Source: Sphingobacteriales bacterium JAD_PAG50586_3
GTDB lineage: Bacteria; Bacteroidota; Bacteroidia; CAMBQF01
Direction of reading: 5' to 3'
DNA length: 64,000 bases
Assembly: GCA_023213195.1 (NCBI GenBank)
Contig: CP096135.1
Coordinates: forward strand, 1,692,616 to 1,756,615
A model generated the notes under the pieces. The model saw only the letters and a program-made list of their open reading frames with translations. It did no database searches and was not told where the DNA came from. Both the position numbers and the translations under genes were made by a program. Positions 40,640 through 45,562 of the stretch are shown piece after piece (position 1 is the first letter of the stretch; each line of letters starts with the position of its first letter).

Positions 40640-40653
40640 TTTTAGTTTTTTAA
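40619..40653. repeat. Heptad repeat, word TTTTNNN, over a start and a stop codon
   Basis: Five seven-base units of the form TTTTNNN (TTTTAGT, TTTTCAC, TTTTCAT, TTTTAGT, TTTTTAA). It contains the polA stop (40650-40652) and the ATG plus six codons of the RraB-like gene. Confidence 0.82.
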
Positions 40654-43454
40654 TGCGCCTCCAACCAATTGCTGCCCGCGCCTACTTCTACCTCTAAGGG
40701 TACAGACAGTTGCACAGCATTCATCATCAGGTCTTTTATCAACGGTTTCAACATTTCCAACTCATCGTTGTGAACGTCAAACACTAACTCGTCATGCACC
40801 TGCAGCACCATCCGCGATTTGGTATTCAGCTTCCGCATTTCCCTGTGTATGTTAATCATCGCCAGCTTAATAATATCAGCAGCAGTGCCTTGTATCGGCG
40901 CGTTAATGGCATTTCGTTCGGCATACCCGCGCACGGTTGCGTTGGTAGAGTTAATGTCTGGCAACACACGCCTGCGGCCCAGTATGGTTTCTGTATAGCC
41001 TGTTTCGCGGGCCCTTTCAATGCTGTTATCCATATACTCCTTTAGCTGGGGGTAAGAGATAAAGTATTGCTTAATAATTTCACCCGCTTCGCCGCGCGGA
41101 ATCTGCAATTGCTCTGATAAGCCAAAAGCCGATATACCGTAGATTATACCAAAGTTTACCGCTTTGGCATTACGGCGCATTTCGCTGGTTACATCAGCCA
41201 GTTCTACCCCGTTTATTTTGGCAGCCGTAGCAGCGTGAATGTCTACCCCGTTCTTAAAGGCATCAATCATACCCACATCGCCGCTAAGGTGGGCTATAAT
41301 GCGTAGTTCCACCTGCGAGTAGTCGGCCGATACCATTGTGTACCCCTCGCCCCGCGGAACAAAAGCCTTGCGCAGTTCTCGGCCTTTTTCGGTTTTAATA
41401 GGTATGTTTTGCAGGTTAGGGTTGTTGCTGCTTAAGCGGCCCGTAGCTGCTACCGTTTGGTTGAACGATGTATGTATACGGCCCGTCTTGGGGTTTATCA
41501 GTTGCGGTAACGAATCGGCGTAGGTCGATTTTAACTTTTGCACCGTGCGGTAGTCTAGTATTTTTTGCACTATAGGGTGCTTGTTTATCAGCTTTACCAA
41601 CACCTCTTCACCGGTAGCAAACTGTTTGGTAGCAGTCTTTTTAGCCTTGTCGTCTATTCCTAGTTTAACAAATAATATGTCGCCCAGTTGCTTAGGCGAG
41701 TTCAGGTTAAAACGCTCGCCTGCCAACTCGTAAATCTCCCCTTCAAAAGTGGTAATATCCGTTTGCAGCATGGCCGAAAAATCGCTCATTACCTTAACAT
41801 CCATATTCACGCCTTCGCGCTCCATATCAGCCAATACAGGCACTAATGGCATCTCCACCTCGTCAAAAAGTTTACGTGTAGTGGTATCTTGCAATTGCGG
41901 TTCAAGTATGTTACGCAGTTGTAGGGTTATATCGGCATCTTCAGCGGCATACTCCTTTATCTTCTCCACTTCCACATCGCGCATGCTGCCTTGGTTCTTG
42001 CCTTTTTTGCCAATCAGCTCCTCAATTTTAACGGGAGTATAACCCAAAAAATGCTGAGCTAACGCGTCCATGCTACGCTGGCGGTTATCAGGCTGAATAA
42101 GGTAATGGGCAATCATGGTATCAAACAACGGGCCTTTAACATGCACACCATAGTTAGCCAAAACAGCCAAATCATATTTAATATTCTGACCGGTTTTTTC
42201 TATGGCTTCATCCTCTAAAACACCTTTAAATTCAGCTATTACAGCATTCGCTTCTGCTTGGTCTGCCGGTACGGGAACATAATATCCCTCGTGCTCTTTT
42301 AAGCTGAAGGATAAGCCCACAATCTCGGCACTTAGCTCATCAAGGCTGGTAGTTTCACTATCAAAGCAAAACTGTTGTGCAGCGCTAAGTTCCGCTATTA
42401 AAGCCGCACGCTTTTCAGGCGTGTCAGCCAGTATGTAGTTATGCTCAACATCATTAATCGTCTTAAAGTTGCTAACCACAGCAGCCTCGGTAGTAGCTTC
42501 GCCGCCACCGCCAAACAAGTCCATTTGGTTGGTGTCCTTAGGTTTTGCGGCTTTAACAACCGGTGGTAACGTTTCGCCCAATACCCTTTGCATCAGCGTA
42601 CGGAACTCCAATTCACCAAACACTTCCCGCACCAAATCTTCTTTAGGCTTACTTATCCTAAGTGCTTCTTCGTTAAGCTCCACAGGCGCGTCAATCCAAA
42701 TGGTAGCAAGGCGTTTAGAAAGGATGGCCTTTTCACCATGCTCCCTTACACGCTCCTGTAGTTTGCCTTTCAGCTTGTCAGTATTCTCCAATACACCCTC
42801 AACACTGCCAAATTGCTTAATCAGTTCTTTAGCGGTTTTCTCGCCCACGCCCGGTATACCCGGAATGTTATCGGCACTATCGCCCCAAAGGCCAAGGATA
42901 TCGCGCACCTGGTCTGGGTTTTGCACCTCAAACTTGGCGCATACCTCTTTCACACCCAGTATCTCCGCACCATTACCCAAACGGGCTGGTTTATATATCA
43001 ATATACACTCTTCAACCAACTGCCCAAAGTCTTTGTCGGGCGTCATCATATACGTAACAAAACCCTCTTTACAGGCTTTCTTGGCAAGGGTTCCAATAAC
43101 ATCATCAGCTTCATACCCGTCACTCATTATTACCGGAATATCAAATGCCTCTATAATCTTAATGATATAAGGGATAGACAGCGACAGGTCTTCGGGCATT
43201 TCTTCGCGGTGGGCTTTATATTCCACATATTCCTCGTGGCGGGCCGTTTGTGCAGGCGTATCAAACACTACCGCAATATGCGTAGGCTTTTCCTTATTAA
43301 GCACCTCTAGCAGCGTATTGGTAAAACCAAACATAGCCGATGTATTTAGGCCCTTAGAGTTATAGCGGTGGTTATTTGCAAAAGCAAAATAAGCACGGTA
43401 TATAAGCGCGTACGCATCAAGCAAAAATAGTTTCTTATCGTGTTGGGGAGTCAT
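40650..43454 (-). CDS. polA: DNA polymerase I
   Basis: Repair and Okazaki-fragment polymerase, 934 residues, complete. The 5'-3' exonuclease domain (residues 1-290: KKLFLLDAYALIYRAYFAFA, MTPDKDFGQLV, DNIPGIPGVGEKTA), the 3'-5' exonuclease domain (FDSETTSLDEL, QNIKYDLAVL, YAAEDADITLQL), which keeps its acidic residues and so is probably active in proofreading, and the polymerase domain (MVSADYSQVELRIIAHLSGD, RRNAKAVNFGIIYGIS, VLQVHDELVFDV). A TATTTTCG box lies at 43475-43482 (minus). Confidence 0.98.
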   Translation of the reverse strand: MTPQHDKKLFLLDAYALIYRAYFAFANNHRYNSKGLNTSAMFGFTNTLLEVLNKEKPTHIAVVFDTPAQTARHEEYVEYKAHREEMPEDLSLSIPYIIKIIEAFDIPVIMSDGYEADDVIGTLAKKACKEGFVTYMMTPDKDFGQLVEECILIYKPARLGNGAEILGVKEVCAKFEVQNPDQVRDILGLWGDSADNIPGIPGVGEKTAKELIKQFGSVEGVLENTDKLKGKLQERVREHGEKAILSKRLATIWIDAPVELNEEALRISKPKEDLVREVFGELEFRTLMQRVLGETLPPVVKAAKPKDTNQMDLFGGGGEATTEAAVVSNFKTINDVEHNYILADTPEKRAALIAELSAAQQFCFDSETTSLDELSAEIVGLSFSLKEHEGYYVPVPADQAEANAVIAEFKGVLEDEAIEKTGQNIKYDLAVLANYGVHVKGPLFDTMIAHYLIQPDNRQRSMDALAQHFLGYTPVKIEELIGKKGKNQGSMRDVEVEKIKEYAAEDADITLQLRNILEPQLQDTTTRKLFDEVEMPLVPVLADMEREGVNMDVKVMSDFSAMLQTDITTFEGEIYELAGERFNLNSPKQLGDILFVKLGIDDKAKKTATKQFATGEEVLVKLINKHPIVQKILDYRTVQKLKSTYADSLPQLINPKTGRIHTSFNQTVAATGRLSSNNPNLQNIPIKTEKGRELRKAFVPRGEGYTMVSADYSQVELRIIAHLSGDVGMIDAFKNGVDIHAATAAKINGVELADVTSEMRRNAKAVNFGIIYGISAFGLSEQLQIPRGEAGEIIKQYFISYPQLKEYMDNSIERARETGYTETILGRRRVLPDINSTNATVRGYAERNAINAPIQGTAADIIKLAMINIHREMRKLNTKSRMVLQVHDELVFDVHNDELEMLKPLIKDLMMNAVQLSVPLEVEVGAGSNWLEAH

Positions 43455-43528: not shown

Positions 43529-43567
43529 AAACCCATACAGTATGTAGCTAATACTGCTTTTTCGCGG
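43529..43567. repeat. Island repeat copy R1
   Basis: First copy of a ~40-base direct repeat with core CATACAGTATGTAGCTAAT and end TTTTTCGCGG. Compare R2-R5 at 43677, 43847, 44005 and 44112. Confidence 0.7.
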
Positions 43568-43620
43568 TTATGTTTTATATTACATAATCCTGACTCAGCC
43601 ATACCTAATTCACGAACAAC

Positions 43621-43668
43621 TCTCCCTTTTAAAGGGAGTACCTCTGACCTTGTGTCAGAGGGGAGGGA
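43621..43668. repeat. REP-like stem-loop split by a palindrome
   Basis: CTCCCTTTTAAAGGGAG is a hairpin; a second hairpin CCTCTGAC..GTCAGAGG follows, then the GGGAGGG tail. The second hairpin sits at the junction of stem and tail. Confidence 0.75.
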
Positions 43669-43676
43669 TTATTTTA

Positions 43677-43738
43677 AAACCCCTACAGCATGTCCCAAAG
43701 GGATGCCTTTGGCATAGTCCGATAACACATTTTCGCGC
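43677..43738. repeat. Island repeat copy R2, carrying an inserted palindrome
   Basis: Starts AACCCCTACAGCA and ends CGATAACACATTTTCGCG. A ~24-base inverted repeat (CCCAAAGG..CCTTTGG arms) interrupts it after CTACAGCATG; without it the copy matches R5. Confidence 0.72.
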
Positions 43739-43750
43739 CCCTTTTTAAAG

Positions 43751-43837
43751 TCCCCTCACTCCCTGCCTGCCGGCAGGCAAGGCTTTAGGAGAGGGGGATT
43801 TATGCCTGTGCTGACCGTAGCGTCAGTGGGGTGAGGG
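43751..43837. repeat. REP-like element with two inserted palindromes
   Basis: The parts CCCCTCACTCC..GGCTTTAGGAGAGGGGGATTTA..GGGGTGAGGG match the simple element at 24738. Two palindromes break it: CTGCCTGCCGGCAGG in the 5' arm, and GCTGACCGTAGCGTCAGT between stem and tail. Confidence 0.8.
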
Positions 43838-43846
43838 AAACAAGCC

Positions 43847-43890
43847 AAATCCCTACAGGCAGTAACTAATAACATCTTTTTCGCGGGTGC
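43847..43890. repeat. Island repeat copy R3
   Basis: AAATCCCTACAGGCAGTAA at the start and TTTTTCGCGGGTGC at the end; it matches R4 at most positions over 44 bases. Confidence 0.8.
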
Positions 43891-43894
43891 TTTA

Positions 43895-43994
43895 TCTCCT
43901 CTCGAGAGGAGTCCCCCGATTCTGTCGGTGTGTGTGTTCTTCCTCACTTTACACACCCCGCCTTCGCTTCGCTCGGCACCCCTCTCAAGAGGGG
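43895..43994. repeat. Composite REP-like element
   Basis: Two strong hairpins, CTCCTCTCGAGAGGAG at the left and CCCCTCTCAAGAGGGG at the right, separated by a GT-rich stretch and an imperfect palindrome (GCCTTCGCTTCGCTCGGC). Confidence 0.7.
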
Positions 43995-44004
43995 AAACAG
44001 CGCC

Positions 44005-44048
44005 AAATCCCTACAGGCAGTAGTTAATGCACTCGTTTTCGCGGGTGC
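44005..44048. repeat. Island repeat copy R4
   Basis: AAATCCCTACAGGCAGTAG at the start and CGTTTTCGCGGGTGC at the end; the best-preserved copy together with R3. Confidence 0.8.
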
Positions 44049-44050
44049 AA

Positions 44051-44112
44051 CCTCCCCCTTCCCCTCCTAAATTTAGGAGGGGGTGTCGCGACGATAGTCG
44101 TGACGGGGGTGG
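44051..44112. repeat. REP-like element with inserted palindrome
   Basis: CCCCTCCTAAATTTAGGAGG hairpin, then the inserted GTCGCGACGATAGTCGTGAC, then the GGGGGTGGT tail. The tail runs straight into island repeat R5. Confidence 0.8.
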
Positions 44113-44152
44113 TAGCCTACAGCACGTAGCCCGATAACTCGTTTTCGTAAGC
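44112..44152. repeat. Island repeat copy R5
   Basis: CCTACAGCACGTAGCCCGAT, then AACTCGTTTTCGTAAGC; the most diverged 3' end of the five copies. Confidence 0.7.
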
Positions 44153-44163
44153 TTATTTTAAAG

Positions 44164-44243
44164 GTCCCTCTCATTGAGAGCCTCTGCTGACATTAATCGT
44201 CAGTAGGTGGATGTCGCCAACGGCGACAGACGGGAGAGGGTGA
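44164..44243. repeat. REP-like element with two inserted palindromes
   Basis: A small CTCTCATTGAGAG hairpin and a GGGAGAGGGTGA tail enclose CTGACATTAATCGTCAG and TGTCGCCAACGGCGACA. Confidence 0.75.
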
Positions 44244-44244
44244 T

Positions 44245-44272
44245 TTTTCATTTTTAGTTTATCATTTTTCAT
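44245..44272. repeat. Heptad repeat, word TTTTCAT
   Basis: Four seven-base units (TTTTCAT, TTTTAGT, TTATCAT, TTTTCAT). The word is shared with the array at 40619. Confidence 0.78.
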
Positions 44273-44427
44273 TTAAAATAAACACCTCAACCCCAATCCC
44301 GTTTTAAGGAGATCAGGGTTAAGGAGTGTAAAAATAGTCGCGTTGGTTCCTACTTACAGAGCTTTATTCAAAGATGATTTCGGTATGTACTTAACTATCT
44401 TTTTAAATGCACTATTACTCTTTTTAA

Positions 44428-44465: not shown

Positions 44466-44526
44466 CTGTACAGCGGTTAGTTTGTTTTTTTACTGATAAC
44501 CCACAGTAATAAGGGTGCCAAGACTT

Positions 44527-44575
44527 GTTATTCGAATAACAGTACAAAGGTACAATAATTAAAAAGATAAGTCAA
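44527..44575 (-). promoter_or_regulatory. Orphan leftward promoter with palindrome at the start site
   Basis: On the minus strand, TTG, 20 bases and TACCTTTG (44552 to 44545) match the phylum promoter. The 14-base perfect palindrome GTTATTCGAATAAC (44527-44540) covers the expected start, like an operator. No open reading frame of note lies downstream for about 1 kb, only the repeat island. Confidence 0.5.
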
Positions 44576-45005: not shown

Positions 45006-45053
45006 GTCCCCTCCTTTTTAAGGAGGGTGCCCGCCTTAGGCGGGCGGGGTGGT
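45006..45053. repeat. REP-like element with inserted palindrome
   Basis: CCCTCCTTTTTAAGGAGGG hairpin, inserted GCCCGCCTTAGGCGGGC, then GGGGTGGT. Confidence 0.82.
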
Positions 45054-45059
45054 TACTTT

Positions 45060-45562
45060 TTAGCCCCTCCCTTCAAGGGGAGGGGTTGGGGAGGGGTCTA
45101 TTTCTTTCAAAAACACATCCGTTGCCTCATCCAGCATATCAAACACCCGCTGAAATTGCATAGGCCCGCCAAAATAAGGGTCGGGTACCGACTCGTTTTC
45201 ATGCCCTGCAACCAGGTCCATAATCATACGCACACGGCTGCGCTCTTCATCATCGCGCGCTAGCGACAGTATATCTTCGTAGTTAGAACTATCCATAGCG
45301 AAAATGTAGTCAAACTCCTTAAGTCGGTATGGTGGAATGGCCTTGCCCTAAGGTCGGCAATATCAATGCCCCGCTCGTGCAGGTTTTGCACCGCGCGGCG
45401 GTCGGGAGCTTCGCCCTCGTGCCATTGCGATGTGCCCGCCGAATCGGTTTCAATAGGTAATCCCTGTTCTTTCGCCTTGTGGCGTAATATACCCTCGGCC
45501 ATTGGGCTGCGGCAAATGTTGCCTAAACAAACCATTAATACCTTTATTTTTTGCTGTGCCAT
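45060..45562 (-). CDS. Low-molecular-weight protein-tyrosine phosphatase (one frameshift; REP-encoded tail)
   Basis: LMW-PTP family enzyme with the P-loop VCLGNICRSPMAEGIL (Cys-X5-Arg) and the acid loop Asp in ESVPDPYFGG. The frame breaks at TT 45319-45320; one more base gives ADLRARPFHHTDLKEFDYIF AMDSSNYED in one frame. After VFLKEI the protein continues DPSPTPPLEGRG, which is encoded by the REP-like element at 45063, so the natural end was extended by the repeat. The -7 box TATCTTTG (45574 to 45567) ends four bases before the ATG. It may act on tyrosine-phosphorylated polysaccharide kinases; that is inference. Confidence 0.9.
45063..45098. repeat. REP-like stem-loop, simple form, inside a coding end
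   Basis: CCCCTCCCTTCAAGGGGAGG hairpin followed by GGTTGGGGAGGGGT. On the minus strand it supplies the last twelve codons of the phosphatase gene. Confidence 0.82.

Follow-up and report, generated by a model that had tools for sequence, protein, structure and literature searches.

Repeat mosaics between bacterial genes tend to be taken for parasites or for debris of recombination. In the neisserial intergenic mosaic elements (NIME), composed of dRS3 and RS repeats, a short constant repeat and families of 30-160 bp elements make up intergenic arrays of 200-2700 bp (PMC3898611). Pneumococcal BOX elements are modular, intergenic and multi-copy, with variable internal modules and predicted RNA structure, and can affect neighbouring genes (PMC3049150). 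REPs, in those parts of the sources on which we draw, are palindromes with a GTAG tag that alternate in BIMEs and go with RAYT genes (PMC2817692, PMC3733652). TAACTGA direct repeats lie in intergenic DNA near genes in some Bacteroidetes, and a post-transcriptional role has been suggested for them (PMC4679880).

The mosaic analysed here, from Sphingobacteriales bacterium JAD_PAG50586_3, lies in a window of 64,000 nt (the whole stretch of DNA that was analysed) and bears gene-like marks: its own promoter, a direction, a covarying folded head and positions kept across species. We put at about 0.7 the probability that the array forms the main part of a minus-strand, non-coding transcription unit, and that at least 44 units of this kind make up a family specific to the genus; the repeat arrays are probably long, modular, untranslated, structured RNAs read from the strand opposite the repeat (R). 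Architecture, promoter match, compensatory changes and orthologous positions are established at the level of sequence, and it is from the sequence that we infer RNA production from the unit.

The array beside polA

In the window the unit is read leftward: it starts with a promoter at 44575-44545 and extends to a point 75 bp short of polA, whose start codon lies 75 bp beyond R copy 1. Along the minus strand we propose first a promoter, then a palindrome at the 5′ end, the folded 5′ domain and a series of hairpin-R units, with an end 75 bp before polA. The features are listed in this order.

44545..44575, minus strand: element promoter, TTGAC ... TACCTTTG (-33 / -7, Bacteroidota type), by consensus match; motif in 34 of 36 arrays
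44526..44541, minus strand: perfect palindrome TGTTATTCGAATAACA, where the transcript is predicted to start
44280..44398, minus strand: folded 5′ domain, type S1; covariance model R2, 110.3 bits, E 1.3e-19, a high score being expected since this domain is among the 12 sequences of the model
44148..44245, minus strand: module B, into which an extra hairpin is inserted; it is the first to follow the 5′ domain
44116-44147, plus strand: R copy 5, 25.9 bits; 3′ part truncated
44047..44115, unstranded: module A, a three-way junction; 50 bits; family consensus fold z = -7.5
44005-44046, plus strand: R copy 4, 42.3 bits
43889..44004, unstranded: module related to O, the match to that family being weak (17 bits)
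43847-43888, plus strand: R copy 3, 32.2 bits
43739..43846, unstranded: module without close relative, a singleton when the compared array spacers were clustered
43677-43738, plus strand: R copy 2, 24.9 bits; interrupted by a 22-nt hairpin
43569..43676, unstranded: module F, 46 bits; also at sister-species locus L258
43529-43568, plus strand: R copy 1, 28.7 bits; copy nearest polA
40650..43454, minus strand: polA, DNA polymerase I (TIGR00593/NF004397), the next gene downstream in the direction of the inferred RNA

With a profile made from copies across the genome, the window yields exactly five R copies, each of them on the plus strand, with scores of about 25-42 bits; the next-best match in the window scores 6.8 bits, and the top score of the same profile in 30 Markov-shuffled windows is 10.8 bits. 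The five direct copies reported in the first-pass annotation are thus real and lie where it had placed them. The closeness it saw between copies 3 and 4 holds (85% identity across 47 nt), as does its statement that no coding sequence is associated, no convincing one being found inside the array. Each interval contains one hairpin module, and several of these modules recur at other sites in the genome. One REP-like element per interval had been proposed; the number stands, but the modules come from about 16 families and keep a fixed orientation. The insertion that splits copy 2 is the 22-nt hairpin CCCAAAGGGATGCCTTTGGCAT. Hairpins of this type, 22-24 nt long, sit at the identical point within R in the window (43688-43709) and at two other loci (L068 and L074).

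A genome-wide family and its relatives

The genome is a single 4.16-Mb contig. A search of it places the repeat in a family whose intergenic arrays number at least 44, with about 150 copies of R counted and ~180 by extrapolation, so that the placement next to polA, correct for the window, is one case among many. A strict pattern search found 36 places, a profile search found 121 copies within the cluster regions first examined, and a systematic sample of 40 x 20 kb (800 kb) together with the window held 40 copies, which extrapolates to ~180. Arrays hold 1 to 12 copies of R at a median spacing of 147 bp and reach 1.9 kb, with modules of roughly 45-200 nt. Orientation of R is mixed in none of the 27 multi-copy clusters. 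A second subfamily, R2 (CTACAAGCAGTAGCAAACCA..ATTTCTGCTCA), occurs at about 19 places. Membership in this family of at least 44 arrays, the opposite-strand promoter, the palindrome and the 5′ domain are what the first-pass annotation lacked.

The R consensus is 43 nt long, has no terminal inverted repeats and folds no better than its shuffles (z 0.3). It holds a small internal stem of 4-5 bp (a CTACA-N3-TGTAG hairpin) that is conserved without covariation, and R as an RNA hairpin was rejected on these two counts. The modules between R copies fold strongly: six families that were folded gave z of -3.3 to -7.5, some as three-way junctions. About 16 recurring module families were distinguished, and R alternates with them in arrays across the genome, which bears out the earlier view that the unit is repeat plus hairpin. 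Orientation relative to R is uniform in 139 of 146 hairpin modules. Module B is the promoter-nearest module in 11 of 33 arrays, a count reached in 0 of 5000 shuffles. Hairpin modules also occur singly elsewhere in the genome. In 8 of the 36 first-listed arrays, the first module is separated from the 5′ domain by an AT-rich conserved element (TTAATCCTTTAATCATATAAATC..CTGCGGTTCAGACAATTTAA), its sites including G000:C1:3181690, 3381180, 3699230, 3783003 and 1982490.

Stepwise growth, proposed at first from the wear of the copies, is upheld in part. R core identity is 84.5% between adjacent copies, 81.5% between non-adjacent copies of the same array and 77.6% between arrays, and some arrays contain near-identical tandem units; growth therefore proceeds partly by local duplication.

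That no nameable family fits the array agrees with the Rfam searches. Rfam gave no match at the gathering threshold in the window, a tRNA was the sole match above gathering score at four other element loci, and permissive thresholds added sub-threshold chance matches. One such sub-threshold match, to anti-hemB RNA at window positions 45007-45105 (26.6 bits; gathering 49.5), is probably to a generic hairpin. The exact R pattern has seven scattered single matches in the GTDB genome collection, in unrelated phyla and consistent with chance, and a search of phages and plasmids for the family gave no match. Tandem repeats with a collagen-like DNA motif (G000:C1:2788100-2789400, L129) adjoin the array at 2789868.

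The family is present in 3 of 295 genomes of the class, all of one genus: the 5′ domains occur in two sister species besides this genome and in no other of the 295. R in its present form has no close copies in the sister species, and a sister-type R pattern gives only five matches across the genus, but related linkers alternate there with hairpins, family F included. Sister elements lie beside orthologous genes, namely polA, the impB/mucB-type polymerase and the DEAD helicase, and at four other places; the one at polA shares the form of the promoter, has a related head and what resembles a palindrome at the 5′ end, and contains no present-type R. At two orthologous boundaries the head is S1 in this genome (G000:C1:3268786 and 3588452) and S2 in the sister species (L260 and L263), a difference that suggests head exchange between loci. 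Fast turnover of R between sister species beside a stable head amounts to a natural experiment on modular RNA growth. Sister-species loci L259, L260, L261 and L262 (G002 contigs 142, 175, 41 and 71) lie at or near contig ends. Short-read assemblies of the genus probably break at these repeats.

Promoter, palindrome, folded 5′ domain and next gene

Following R orientation past the last copy, one enters in most arrays a conserved stretch of roughly 300-500 nt, which on the opposite strand starts with TTGAC-N16-20-TANCTTTG. Within 1200 bp, this motif is found on the strand opposite R in 34 of 36 arrays, with two lacking it, and on the control strand in 0 of 36; its background is 0.013 per 1200 bp. 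The element promoters match the Bacteroidota -33/-7 promoter consensus, TTTG/TANNTTTG (PMC6847099, PMC2483708). A palindrome with an arm of at least 5 follows in 30 of 36 elements, vs 2.2% in shuffles, and its centre is invariably 11-13 nt downstream of the -7 motif while its sequence varies among copies (GTTATTGCGCAATAAC, GTTATTCGAATAAC, GTATTTGCAAATAC, TGTTTCGAAACA and others). Of 17 consensus promoters in the 800-kb sample, 8 are those of array elements, and a palindrome follows a consensus promoter only at array elements. If transcribed, the units would on this sampled count represent about half of the consensus promoters of the genome and a major investment in RNA.

After the palindrome and before the hairpin-R units comes the 5′ domain, of type S1 (with a variant, S3) or S2, recognisable in 36 of the 44 arrays and absent as such from the other eight. 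In alignments that were fitted to the models and whose rows are mostly paralogues of one genome, 17 of 36 pairs in S2 and 11 of 27 in S1 are changed on both sides, and in each case 0 of 500 shuffles reach that. Slid-structure controls pair at 27-49% vs 94% for the 5′ domain structures. Cells with G-U exceed those with A-C in these alignments (88 vs 6 and 133 vs 6), an excess that favours the inferred RNA strand, on which the structures were themselves predicted. Covariance models of the 5′ domain alone located eight elements new to the R searches, and at all eight loci an R array is present, with side and orientation as predicted.

Genes around the elements were called by a simple codon-usage method. 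A sense gene comes next after 16 of 20 S1 units and 6 of 16 S2 units (Fisher p 0.016), and in 14 of the 36 (10 of 16 for S2 units) the gene that follows is convergent; a leader role is therefore not general. The next genes include polA, a DEAD helicase, an impB/mucB-type polymerase, an ArsR regulator, an ECF-type sigma factor, a PTPS enzyme and a glycosyltransferase. When the neighbouring genes were compared no function in common was found, and a leader role for a specific pathway is therefore unlikely. The elements possibly have a general role, or none.

Possible origins and comparison with known systems

On the proposed account, R is a conserved linker that does not itself fold, set between hairpin modules that fold strongly. 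The units would multiply through local tandem duplication, and recombination between loci would swap modules and 5′ domains. Because R is conserved in sequence yet unfolded between folded modules, each copy is, more speculatively, a putative binding site for an RNA-binding factor, with copy number setting the dose. Equally speculative is that the palindromic 5′ hairpin may protect the RNA from 5′-end-dependent decay; S1-type units may also serve as long leaders for the next gene, here polA. The larger claim, that these are a new class of bacterial RNA (multi-locus and promoter-driven, with a covarying 5′ domain, folded modules, unfolded linkers as binding sites, and shuffled modules and heads), we advance tentatively from the sequence, at rather less than even odds.

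The elements might instead exist to control the next gene as long regulatory 5′ leaders, acting by attenuation or on mRNA stability. A sense gene follows 16 of 20 S1 units, polA begins 75 bp past the last R with no clear promoter in its own upstream stretch, and an element upstream of polA is kept in the sister species; however, most S2 units (10 of 16) have a convergent gene ahead of them, the targets lack a common function, and the gene-proximal end has no obvious conserved terminator/antiterminator pair, so that we hold this account doubtful, if worth keeping in mind. Rather unlikely, in our estimate, is a non-functional intergenic mosaic, in which MITE-like repeats and hairpins accumulate side by side and are transcribed by chance, recombination at R being the only mechanism. 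It would suit the single hairpin modules elsewhere in the genome, the unrelated functions of the neighbouring genes, the tandem duplication of units, and an R that varies from 1 to 12 copies and evolves fast enough to leave no close copies in sister species. It would not lead one to expect a fixed orientation of R and modules, a promoter in 34 of 36 arrays, a covarying 5′ domain, a palindromic start, or retention at identical gene boundaries in sister species. Terminal inverted repeats, which together with a target-site duplication mark MITEs and insertion-sequence ends, were not seen for the element as a whole in a comparison of occupied sites.

Three readings assign the array to a known kind of machinery or error, and all fare poorly. 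An integron-like cassette array, with R as the site-specific recombination site, would share the constant site, the exchangeable modules of fixed orientation and one end with a preferred module; it is very unlikely given that no integron integrase exceeds its cut-off (TIGR02249 best 80.5 bits vs 265), that the modules are non-coding, that R has no attC core GTTRRRY and that there are more than 40 loci rather than a single platform. Mobilisation of R as a REP/BIME-type repeat by a RAYT (Y1_Tnp) transposase is disfavoured as highly improbable: R is intergenic, in high copy and has its small CTACA-N3-TGTAG hairpin, and the genome has three Y1_Tnp genes, but no R lies within 1.5 kb of any of them, each has its own unrelated palindromic repeats, R orientation never alternates and R folds no better than shuffles. 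The RAYT-like genes are L093 (G000:C1:1165340), L094 (506454) and L095 (1099007), with palindromes such as GGTCCGGAGGACCGAAATGTCAATAG and TTAACCCCGCACTTTAGTGTGGGG. Assemblies are often confused by repeats, and the first-pass annotation named a read-assembly artefact or the end of a known insertion sequence as what would overturn it. Both are refuted for practical purposes by a single 4.16-Mb contig with at least 44 loci in differing unit orders, by independent sister genomes that share the architecture in orthologous elements, by the lack of a match in phages or plasmids and by the failure to find any insertion-sequence end. A CRISPR array was also rejected, since its spacers would be unique and the intervals here belong to recurring hairpin families that vary in length.

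Like REPs in BIMEs, R is a high-copy intergenic repeat that forms mosaics, but it is not palindromic, does not alternate (0 of 27 clusters mixed) and does not flank a RAYT gene. The TAACTGA repeats are likewise intergenic direct repeats near genes, but are tandem heptamers with neither hairpin modules nor a 5′ domain. In sequence architecture the closest systems are NIME and BOX. With BOX the arrays share modular, intergenic, multi-copy elements, a variable number of internal modules and predicted RNA structure; whereas BOX has boxA and boxC ends around boxB, here there is one special, promoter-bearing end and about 16 module families split by R. Only the promoter-side end of the arrays is conserved; the gene-side flanks, compared by eye, vary. 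The likeness to NIME is that R, of 43 nt, alternates with several longer module families in intergenic arrays. The dRS3 repeat, however, is 20 bp long with 6-bp terminal inverted repeats (ATTCCC-N8-GGGAAT) and is a phage-integrase target, whereas R has no terminal inverted repeats; the part of the NIME description on which we draw (PMC3898611) makes no mention of a promoter, of a folded 5′ domain or of a fixed direction. Since the array misses one defining feature of each of NIME and BOX, it is a variant intergenic mosaic rather than a member of either.
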